DNA from: Cupriavidus oxalaticus
GTDB lineage: Bacteria > Pseudomonadota > Gammaproteobacteria > Burkholderiales > Burkholderiaceae
Direction: 5' to 3'
Assembly: GCF_004768545.1 (NCBI RefSeq)
Contig: NZ_CP038635.1
Location: 1,364,001 to 1,428,000, forward strand
Length of the DNA: 64,000 nucleotides
Position numbers and translations under genes: made by a program. Positions within the stretch are counted from its first letter, which is position 1. The number at the start of each line of letters is the position of its first letter. Positions 49,801 through 58,231 of the stretch are shown one piece after another. The notes under the pieces are model-generated. The model did not search any database and was not told the DNA's origin. It saw only the letters and a list, made by a program, of their open reading frames with translations.

Positions 49801-50872
49801 CTTCGCGGTGCTGCGCGAGGCTGGCCTGTCCGCATGCAGTCACGTGGTCGGCAAGCCCAACACCACCGACCAGGTCGAGATCTACCGCGATGCCAAGAAG
49901 GTGTTCGGCGCGTCGCGCACGGACCTGCAGCGCAACTGGAGCGAGGTCAGCTGGCGCATCGCGCGCCTGCGCGACAACCCGGCCTGCGCCGACAGCGAGT
50001 ATGACCGCCTGCTGGACGCCGCCGATCCGGGCATCAGCCCGGTGCTGACGTTCGATCCGGCGGAGGACATCGCCGCGCCGTTCATCGCTACCGGCGCGCG
50101 TCCGCGCGTGGCGATCCTGCGGGAGCAGGGCGTCAACTCGCAGATCGAGATGGCCTACAGCATGGATCGTGCGGGCTTCGATACGCATGATGTGCATATG
50201 AGCGACCTGATCGCCGGGCGTGCCAACCTGGCGGATTTCACGGGCTTTGTTGCCTGCGGCGGCTTCAGCTACGGCGACGTGCTGGGCGCGGGCGAGGGCT
50301 GGGCCAAGACCATCCTGTTCAATGCGCAGATGGCCGAGCAGTTCGCGGCGTTCTTCAATCGCGAGGACACGTTTGCGCTGGGCGTCTGCAATGGTTGCCA
50401 GATGATGAGCAACCTGGCGCCGATCATTCCGGGGGCGGGGGCGTGGCCGCAGTTCACGCGTAACCAGTCGGAGCAGTACGAGGCGCGTTATGTCACGGTG
50501 GAGGTGCAGTCGTCGCCGTCGATCTTCTTTGCTGGCATGGAAGGTAGCCGCATTCCTATCGTGGTTGCGCACGGTGAAGGGTATGCGGACTTTTCGCAGC
50601 AGGGGAATATCGGCGAGGCCAACGTTGCGCTGCGTTTCGTCGACAACTACGGCGCGGTGACGCAGAGCTATCCGTTGAATCCGAATGGTTCGCCTGAGGG
50701 CATCACCTCGGTGACTACTGTCGATGGGCGCTTTACCGTGCTGATGCCGCATCCTGAGCGTGTGTTCCGTGCTGCCACGATGAGCTGGGCGCCGGATGCT
50801 TGGAAGCAGGTTGGCGATGGTGGTAGCCCGTGGATGCGGATGTTCAGGAATGCCAGGAAGTGGGTGGGGTAA
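46826..50872 (+). CDS. purL: phosphoribosylformylglycinamidine synthase
   Basis: Large single-chain FGAM synthase of purine synthesis: FGAR + glutamine + ATP give FGAM. It has 1348 residues, typical of beta-proteobacteria. The N-terminal PurS-like part is followed by a linker and two ATP-grasp-like AIRS halves ([84 protein letters not shown]). The C-terminal glutamine amidotransferase domain has the nucleophile in [10 protein letters not shown], and the His-Glu pair in [23 protein letters not shown] is the oxyanion region. The last 400 bp are visibly less GC-rich at third positions than the rest. Confidence 0.97.
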
Positions 50873-50897
50873 GGCTTGGGATCTGTCTTGCGCCTAG

Positions 50898-51757
50898 GGA
50901 CCTCGCGGTTGGTGACATGCTGTCGGGCTTTTGAAGCGCTTTGTCGCAGTTGGTGGCATGCTGTTGGCCGTTGAAGCGCCTAGTTCCGCCCTCCTGGGCG
51001 GGTCACTTTTTGGCCGAGCGCCAAAAAGTAACCAAAAAACGCGTCGCCTGAGCGGCTGGCTATCAAGTTGGCGGCGTGGGTGGTTCGGGCGGCGGTGATT
51101 TCCGTTTTGGCTTGGGTGGCCGTTCGAGCCTGCTAACGCCAGGTGAGTTAGGGATAGTGCCTGGCGTTAATCGACTATTGAACGATCCCCATGCCGGGCG
51201 TAGGCCGCCTGCTGCATGCCGTATCGGTGGGACGCCTTCGGCTGCGCTACGCGCGGGCCCTAAGGTGGCTGGGCGGCTGATTTCGACTTGGTCACCAACA
51301 GCGCCCTGCGAGCGTAGCGACGCAGGTCCGTGCCCGAGAATTTCACCGGCGAGACTGAGCCGCGCGCAGCGCAGCCGTAGGCGATGACGCGATCCCCCTG
51401 GTAGCAGGCGGCCTACGCCCGTCCTGGGGATGGTTCAAAAGTGGGGATTCGCCAGGCACCCACACTCACTCACCTGGCGTAGCAGGCTGGCATCGCGACC
51501 ACGCCCACTGAGACCAACGCCGCCCATATAGCCAGAAGCGCCAAATTGGCTCAGCCAGCCGCAGGCGACGCGCTTTTTGGTTACTTTTTGTCGCTCGGAC
51601 AAAAAGTGACCCGCCCAGCAGGGCGGAACCAGGCGCTTCAACGGCCGACAGCATGTCACCAACAGCGACAGCGACGCAGCAACGGCCGATAACATGTCAC
51701 CATCAGCGACAGCGACGCATCAACGGCCGACAGCATGTCACCAGCTGCGAGGACCGT
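50898..51757. repeat. about 860-bp near-palindromic non-coding element
   Basis: The two halves are inverted copies about a centre near 51307-51308. Matching arms include: 50984-51050 (GTTCCGCCCTCCTGGGCGGG ... CAAAAAGTAACC) with 51555-51629; 51129-51148 (CCTGCTAACGCCAGGTGAGT) with 51468-51486; 51180-51215 (GATCCCC ... GGCGTAGGCCGCCTGCT) with 51403-51436; and 50898-50980 with 51630-51757. The arms are imperfect, with local divergence. Short open frames inside are products of the repeat, not genes. There is no transposase. The right end carries 41-bp tandem repeats. Confidence 0.85.
51639..51755. repeat. 41-bp tandem repeats at the right end of the palindrome
   Basis: Units begin CAACGGCCGA at 51639, 51680 and 51721, so the period is exactly 41 bp, with about 2.8 copies. 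Each holds the core CAGCATGTCACC (or a variant) and GCGACAGCGACGCA. Two diverged inverted units are present at the left end (50898-50980). Confidence 0.85.
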
Positions 51758-51790
51758 CGATAATCTACTAAAGCCGATTCACCCCAAAAC

Positions 51791-52078
51791 CTACGCCATC
51801 AACCTAGAACTCCAAGACGCATACGCATAAGTCAACATCCGCCCCGATTCAAATCCAGGTGCAGGCTTGATTTCACCCCGAGCCTCCTTGTACGCCACCA
51901 CGGCATGCAGGATCTTCTCGGGCGCATAACGGTCACGCAGGGGAAGGTAGGGGTGGAGCTGGCGCCAGCCAGGGGCGGCGCCGTCCAGAGTCGTCCAGGC
52001 CAGCGCGCAATAGCACATGCCCCGGGACGTGAGATGCCACAGTTGCCAGTAGGGGGCGGTCGTCTCCACACGCTGCAT
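51791..52078 (-). CDS. hypothetical protein
   Basis: A 95-residue protein rich in aromatic residues (APYWQLWHLTSRGMCYCALAW; WRQLHPYLPLRDRYAPEKILHAVVAYKEARGE; TYAYASWSSRLMA). There is no signal peptide and no TM segment. I do not recognise a family. The frame fills the space between the palindrome and the ppiC gene, codon use is like neighbours, and the composition is protein-like rather than shadow-like, which supports a real gene. A start at 52078 is preceded by the ppiC end 42 bp away in the same orientation. Confidence 0.55.
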   Translation of the reverse strand: MQRVETTAPYWQLWHLTSRGMCYCALAWTTLDGAAPGWRQLHPYLPLRDRYAPEKILHAVVAYKEARGEIKPAPGFESGRMLTYAYASWSSRLMA

Positions 52079-52119
52079 CGTTCAACCTTGCAGGACCGGT
52101 GGGGGCGACCGGTCCGTGA

Positions 52120-58090: not shown

Positions 58091-58194
58091 AGCCGGCACA
58101 GGGCAGCATCCGGTGCGCCGCGCCTGCTTGCGGCATGGCGCCGCCCGGGGCCCGGCTGCATGGCGCGGACAGGAGGGCGCCACGCCGCCGGCCG

Positions 58195-58231
58195 CAATCA
58201 ACGACTGCAATCAACGACTGCAATCAACGAC
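58195..58231 (+). repeat. 13-bp tandem repeat upstream of the substrate-binding protein gene
   Basis: CAATCAACGACTG occurs twice in tandem (58195-58207, 58208-58220) and a third copy is partial (58221-58231), followed by the related CAAGCCAACGACAAG. It lies 30 bp before the gene start, next to the ribosome-binding site. Confidence 0.85.

Follow-up and report, generated by a model that had tools for sequence, protein, structure and literature searches.

The question raised by this locus is what kind of element a long non-coding palindrome of Cupriavidus oxalaticus represents, and which part of it is maintained in evolution. The window, i.e. the whole stretch of 64,000 nucleotides that was analysed, contains the palindrome just to the right of the purL stop at 50872; on its other side a small ORF (51791-52078, minus strand) and then a parvulin-like gene follow, all gene names being read off the translations. 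This agrees with the initial annotation, which had placed the element between purL and a hypothetical gene. The extent 50898-51757 proposed there was borne out as well. The self-inverted local alignment score of the element was 315, and none of 289 random same-size pieces of the window scored above 37. The element is organized as follows:

50898-51757, whole element: long imperfect palindrome consisting of outer 41-bp units, end modules and arms, with its centre near 51308
50898-50902 and 51751-51755: GGACC direct repeat, a possible but unsupported 5-bp target duplication
50903-50979, plus strand: left 41-bp units (TCGC..TTGGTGACATGCTGTCGGCCGTTGAAGCG), 1.9 copies
50986-51001, plus strand: left hairpin 1, CCGCCC-TCCT-GGGCGG
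51002-51039, plus strand: left triplex-like module (S1-loop-S2-GTAACC-S3), with S1 at 51007-51011 (T5), S2 at 51023-51027 (A5), GTAACC at 51028-51033 and S3 at 51034-51039 (A6)
51040-51260 (end approximate), plus strand: left arm body, type A (GTCGCCTGAGCGGCTGGCTATCAA...)
51360-51572 (end approximate), minus strand: right arm body, type C, which differs from the left one
51573-51610, minus strand: right triplex-like module, with S1 at 51601-51605, S2 at 51585-51589, loop at 51579-51584 and S3 at 51573-51578 (AAAAAG)
51611-51626, minus strand: right hairpin 1, CCGCCC-TGCT-GGGCGG
51639-51750, minus strand: right 41-bp units, 2.7 copies

Tandem 41-bp units are present at both ends, as had been described. 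The near-perfect symmetry first attributed to the element holds for its outer 110 nt or so, where 50942-51050 and 51562-51670 (109 nt) are 93% alike, but not for the inner arms, where 51136-51256 and 51360-51480 (121 nt) are only 76% alike; outer inverted pairs such as 50898-50931/51722-51755 (34 nt) reach 85%. The predicted RNA fold of the element has a free energy of -588.7 kcal/mol, against a mean of -367.5 in 20 shuffles, and folding was far more stable than in shuffles on both strands. A coding function, which the initial annotation had denied, found no support: only short ORFs are present (the longest with 103 aa), and gene calling by codon usage called none inside 12 copies of the source genome. 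The element gave no match at the Rfam gathering score, and six further loci gave matches to rRNA only. Elsewhere in the window, a 13-bp unit (GCAATCAACGACT) is repeated in 2.9 perfect tandem copies (58194-58231).

The element belongs to a dispersed family. A 236-nt arm query against the source genome (7.97 Mb, 7 contigs), for which 40 of 42 candidates were scored, yielded 29 arm matches that group by position into 12 long-match sites and four short sites with end modules only. Eleven of the long-match sites are located on contig C2 and one on C1; the C2 site near 1502000 is complex. The left arm of the window copy (235 nt inward of hairpin 2) matches an arm of the copy at C2:1054360 at 96.2% and the ortholog in the related genome G003 at 93.2%, and the right arm matches arms of the copies near C2:1502000, 1054360 and 1430207 at 94.5, 94.1 and 90.7%, respectively. 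With up to two mismatches allowed, 43 of 48 matches to the end-unit core in the source genome were assigned by position to family copies, the remaining five being two-mismatch singles. Among 60 genomes, the whole-element query found matches in 14, all within the genus (14/36 against 0/24 in other members of the order), although weak copies can be missed because eight candidates per genome were scored. The exact end unit occurred in 36 stretches of a named genome collection, of which 35 were labelled Cupriavidus and one, a MAG, Gammaproteobacteria. A strict hairpin pattern was found in one of 300 genomes of the order, namely the source genome, in a sample that held one other member of the genus; the whole element had no match in phage and plasmid collections. 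The supposed occurrence of the family in other Cupriavidus genomes is supported by these counts. The initial annotation had named arms occurring nowhere else as the mark of a local inverted duplication; arms do occur elsewhere, and the presence of the element differs between related genomes.

By reading, at least three arm bodies (A, B and C) can be told apart, which the copies combine in inverted order; end modules and an innermost stretch are common to copies with different arm bodies. The window copy has the arm types A-C, and in other copies hairpin 1 has the stem CGCCGGC-GTA-GCCGGCG instead of the CCGCCC stem. Two copies of the source genome on different contigs, L060 (C2:3179900) and L061 (C1:1968500), are the immediate downstream neighbours of rRNA operons (5S at 2784-2897 of L060 and 1783-1896 of L061) and have the operon-side flank in common. 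The end unit was located very near one end of the retrieved stretch in L171, L183, L184, L186, L189, L192 and others. Where such an end is a contig end, palindromes probably break short-read assemblies, and copy numbers from draft genomes may therefore be underestimates.

Dispersed, non-coding sequences with inverted ends are typical of miniature transposable elements (MITEs). The family shares these three properties, including terminal inverted repeats in the window element, and the initial annotation had considered a non-autonomous mobile element. Such an element would have ends (TCGCTGTTGGTGACATGCTGTCGG...) recognized in trans by some transposase and would have spread by insertion. In favour of this, inverted ends are conserved in copies that lie in different flanks on two contigs, and the window copy is framed by GGACC. 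In the copies and genomes examined, however, neither an insertion nor a consistent target duplication nor a partner transposase was found, and the family would differ from MITEs in the last two. All 22 exact end-unit matches in the source genome lie at family copies, and none of the 12 copies analysed had a called gene, so that no autonomous version with these ends was seen in this genome; a consistent target duplication was absent among its copies by eye. The sole Y1_Tnp match of the source genome (C2:3360478) has no element ends nearby, the best element match in its 3.3-kb locus being 28 nt long (E 0.002), and a search of this genome with the Y1_Tnp family did not find a RAYT-type Y1 transposase flanked by the repeat. 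No clean pair of filled and empty sites was obtained at the two sites tried. A comparison of the copy at C2:2050854 with six relatives failed since the site also differs by other genes, and the copy at C2:537400 of G025 faces a scar instead of an empty site in the source genome. At the position of the one-armed copy C2:2050854, G003 (L225) and G025 (L226) carry two small toxin-antitoxin-like genes by reading. Transposase-like genes within some copies of relatives appear by reading to belong to nested insertion sequences; the inserts in L097, L174 and L133 we take to be IS256-like and that in L103 IS110-like, and the large insert of L096 consists of masked N. Overall, spread as a MITE-like transposon appears unlikely.

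Intergenic palindromes in both orientations are also known as REP/BIME repeats. The family resembles them in these respects and differs by a far longer unit, several arm types and ends for which no RAYT linkage was found in the source genome.

Related sites record what happens to the copies. At the purL-ppiC site, a ppiC match was obtained in all 60 genomes, and the best 30 of these loci were read. The element is present in G000, G003 and G025 and in diverged form in G029 and G017; it is cut by a contig end in G026 and reduced to a 34-nt palindrome in G019. Sixteen loci with purL in view had no element match at E 1e-5, and seven loci had no purL in view. One of the 16, L087 (G079), has a miniature palindrome at this site with ends of the same type, GTTTCGCC..CTTTTTG..CAAAAAG..GGCGAAAC.

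Against filled related sites, six deletion joints were identified, at CATG (two), GAACC/GGTTC (three) and CCGCCC (one). In G019 the outermost half-units of the purL-ppiC copy are joined at CATG, and a second CATG joint in G026 was recognized by a flank of about 75 nt common to the filled sites. The GAACC/GGTTC joints are those of G019 (L181), of L224 in the source genome, where G025 has a full element, and of C. necator SHC 2-3 (L174), the last of which adjoins a nested insertion sequence. The CCGCCC joint (G026, L185) has further changes beside it. One exact joint sequence had a match in one of the 60 genomes. Both ends are built of small hairpins in series, which is why they have these 4-6-nt repeats in common, and the losses thus look like deletions of palindromes between short direct repeats. 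Loss of palindromes at short direct repeats was reportedly described by Collins et al. in 1982. Similar to near-precise excision of the Tn5 type, the joints are at 4-6-nt repeats near the base of the palindrome; different from it, they come from a comparison of naturally occurring related loci, and one family shows several of them.

Copies were also inverted in place at two sites of the source genome. At L051, the left and right arms matched their counterparts in L128 at 65.6% each when compared in the same position, whereas the left-right and right-left comparisons gave 93.6 and 89.5%; L136 is unflipped relative to L051. At L050, the left-right comparison reached 93.2% with L134 and 94.9% with L163. 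In a third copy, L053 (C2:1054360), the arms were replaced: compared with G003, the flanks are 95.9 and 96.5% alike and the arms 73.3 and 62.0% (83.5% in the best cross pairing), while the same arms match those of other copies in the source genome at 95.7 and 96.2%. Flips and arm exchange thus point to recombination between copies, with no fresh insertion seen. The comparison of loci with and without the element, suggested at the outset as a check for mobility, did reveal differences in presence, but those that could be read are deletions, inversions and arm exchanges.

What the copies keep through these changes lies in the end module. Beside hairpin 1 it reads GTCAC-TTTTT-G-loop-C-AAAAA-GTAACC-AAAAAA, i.e. 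a pyrimidine run, a loop, a purine run, GTAACC and a second purine run, which is the order of segments in the potential intrastrand triplex (PIT/TM) motifs of the catalogue that Holder et al. published in 2015 (PMC4666352). The stem pair beside the loop is variable, with G-C in 64, T-A in 60 and C-G in five of 133 distinct contexts and four unpaired. In 44 two-armed elements, 86 of 88 arms retain this pair within the local hairpin, whereas pairing between the two arms at this position is retained in 33 of the 44; the local hairpin is therefore maintained rather than the long palindrome. The initial view of one folded element is contradicted by this difference.

The third run usually follows changes of the stem run, in mirror order. 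The states TTTCT/AGAAA/AAAGA, TCTTT/AAAGA/AGAAA and TCTTTT/AAAAGA/AGAAAA were found along with the symmetric TTCTT/AAGAA/AAGAA. After addition of 60 more regions, nearly all of them known copies, a scan gave 310 strand-wise contexts. Their loops identified 156 as inward and 127 as outward, the outward ones being the reverse reading of the same modules, and 27 had neither loop; five of these 27, inward, were restored by their loop. Collapsing of repeats left 149 modules, whose loci are Cupriavidus, possibly except one MAG locus. A Watson-Crick stem together with a mirror third strand is present in 139 of the 149; modules move as blocks, so that these rows are not independent, and by our own estimate the clearly separate origins inside the genus number only about three for sequence states and two for length states. 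In G029, 31 of 34 modules agree, yet 12 of 14 elements have their two arms in different states. Among the 36 modules with a G in the second strand, 32 are fully consistent, and the 16 asymmetric modules comprise 14 in mirror order, none in direct order and two in neither. When third strands were shuffled among rows (20,000 trials), at most 102 rows agreed over five positions compared with 138 observed. Ten modules break the three-strand rule; in nine rows the change is single or only partial, as expected if states change step by step.

Run lengths are matched as well. In 165 modules, including one from Diaphorobacter, a stem run of 5 is followed by a third run of 6 in 145 of 148 cases, a stem run of 4 by 5 in 13 of 14 and a stem run of 6 by 7 in both cases. 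The third run equals the stem run plus one in 160 of the 164 rows with equal stems, one row with unequal stems being left out.

An antiparallel purine third strand requires mirror order, as does a parallel pyrimidine one on the complementary strand. If the first and third runs instead competed for Watson-Crick pairing, their order would have to be direct, and no such case was seen. A C-A mismatch (121/133) at the foot of hairpin 2 had suggested an argument for one strand; this was given up since by eye no consistent strand is apparent in modules outside the genus.

As far as the consulted sections of Holder et al. (PMC4666352) describe them, PIT/TM motifs and the window module are alike in their Y-run, loop, R-run, short loop and second R-run, and motif and family are both intergenic and multicopy, form inverted pairs and show small deletions at the motif, such deletions being reported there at inverted pairs. 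Segments able to form the PIT/TM pairing, Y-R followed by an antiparallel mirror R, were found in 139 of 149 modules in the genus and in 16 of 16 outside. In the same sections the Holder motif is GC-rich whereas the window module is A/T-rich, and the ITxF limits are runs of 6-15 nt and loops of 1-6 nt; the window module falls outside them because its run has 5 nt and its first loop seven or more. A GC-rich second repeat, CCCTCTCCCGC..GCGGGAGAGGGGCCGGGGGTGAGGG, seen by eye in the copy centres of L096, L098, L121, L141 and L064, resembles the TM(ECO) triplex motif described in those sections. A term search of the main text of PMC4666352 returned no mention of three-strand covariation, no description of the family was found in the consulted sections of the C. 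metallidurans genome paper (PMC2864759), and literature available without subscription gave no account of this palindrome family or of three-strand covariation. The motif class is thus known, and for its three-strand covariation no report was found.

Loss and rearrangement at several sites would also be expected from a selfish or neutral repeat that is merely prone to structure, with no function, in which the hairpin covariation stems from template-switch correction of quasi-palindromes. Template switching, however, makes inverted repeats and accounts neither for a mirror third run nor for matched run lengths, and we regard this explanation as improbable.

The copies are intergenic and mostly located downstream of genes. 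Genes were called by a codon-usage score trained on the window, and 168 hairpin-2 clusters were obtained in the fetched loci, of which 138 were flanked by sufficient sequence and 72 differed from one another (a copy divided by an insert, e.g. L096 or L097, counts twice); 18 of the 72 could not be classified. The other 54 comprise 29 in tail-to-tail, 24 in tandem and one in head-to-head gaps, compared with 4, 19 and 5 among the 28 window gaps longer than 80 nt. Tail-to-tail gaps are enriched (Fisher, p = 0.0007) and head-to-head gaps depleted (p = 0.016), both values being rough because orthologous copies are recounted and the background is one window.

This distribution would suit a terminator or insulator repeat, each end of which stops transcription entering from the neighbouring gene. 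Both ends carry an inward GC hairpin followed by a T-run, and all four terminator-like sites within 50600-52100 lie in the element (4 consensus sites found against 1.2 expected). In six relatives that lack the element (L074, L076, L081, L088, L089 and L093), an ordinary hairpin with a T-run is seen by eye in the same gap. Unlike in a classical terminator, the T-run begins 5 nt past hairpin 1 and pairs within hairpin 2. In Burkholderia cepacia a module separates aceF from lpdA, and in Ilyobacter one is located between divergent genes, positions at odds with termination; according to Holder et al. (PMC4666352), earlier studies had found PIT motifs to lack terminator activity. Termination as the function of the ends is doubtful, if conceivable; the modules may still plausibly serve as boundaries at gene ends, though the aceF-lpdA and divergent-gap cases weaken this role.

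These last modules belong to a set outside Cupriavidus. When 399 genomes of the order were searched at the DNA level with the 66-nt module, 21 were listed at E ≤0.05, mostly by chance; two of them, G386 and G097 (E 2e-5), carry modules, and in the 24 loci scanned modules were found in the source genome, G015, G386 and G097 only. L304 (E 0.005), a broken hairpin without a third run, was not counted. Searches of plasmid collections listed 41 matches, eleven of which were examined. Altogether, 16 modules were recognized in 13 loci outside the genus, namely in Diaphorobacter, Variovorax, two Burkholderia, Paraburkholderia, Iodobacter, Pseudomonas, Aeromonas, Pasteurella, Ilyobacter (Fusobacteriota), Bacteroides, G386 and G097, by a rule that fixed the position of the third run, admitted any purines and used loop forms chosen after the loci had been seen. 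Ten are asymmetric, all ten in mirror and none in direct order, and six are symmetric; the two Burkholderia have the same sequence, which leaves nine distinct asymmetric cases, and the loci were detected by their similarity to queries that already obey the rule, a bias toward it. In Aeromonas, Pasteurella, Ilyobacter, Burkholderia and Iodobacter all three runs differ from the query at once. Runs outside the genus have 5-8 nt. Facing pairs of modules are present in Variovorax, Paraburkholderia and G097, with different states in Variovorax and G097, which suggests that comparable two-ended elements exist in other genera. In the plasmid records of Variovorax (L327) and Paraburkholderia (L331), the inward pairs are about 0.5-0.6 kb apart. 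We see an even chance that the A/T-rich three-stranded hairpin (Y-run, R-run, GTAACC-like loop and mirror R-run) is an element of many bacterial phyla selected for its triplex fold, of which inverted pairs bracket palindromic repeats in several genera; the selection would then show in the covariation of the three strands, both in order and in run length.

From the comparisons of sequence presented here, the local three-stranded end fold, and not the long palindrome, would be the selected or propagating unit, and its pairs would make a palindrome prone to deletion; we assign this reading a probability of roughly 0.6. Each copy consists of two inverted arms, often of different type and each capped by 41-bp units, a GC hairpin and the PIT-like motif. 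The three-stranded fold may form when one strand is single-stranded, as in the lagging-strand template, a transcription bubble or a transcript, and would most likely be kept by selection or be needed for propagation. The palindrome would arise because two end modules face inwards, and it may in turn make the locus prone to recombination, slippage and deletion. Least certain is the step by which a fold at gene ends would act as a boundary slowing polymerases; candidate roles are such a gene-end boundary, a recombination substrate and a mobilisation end.

Triplex-forming motifs are abundant in bacteria, and the fold may or may not be used by cells; the in vivo test given in the consulted sections of Holder et al. 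(PMC4666352) was negative, with no stable triplex for a related motif. Covariation of strands is the type of evidence that established RNA helices, and the mirror order found here goes beyond ordinary pairing. The family is moreover a natural record of long palindromes that were flipped, re-armed and deleted. If the proposed reading is true, its end modules would provide evolutionary evidence that the intrastrand triplex matters in living cells.
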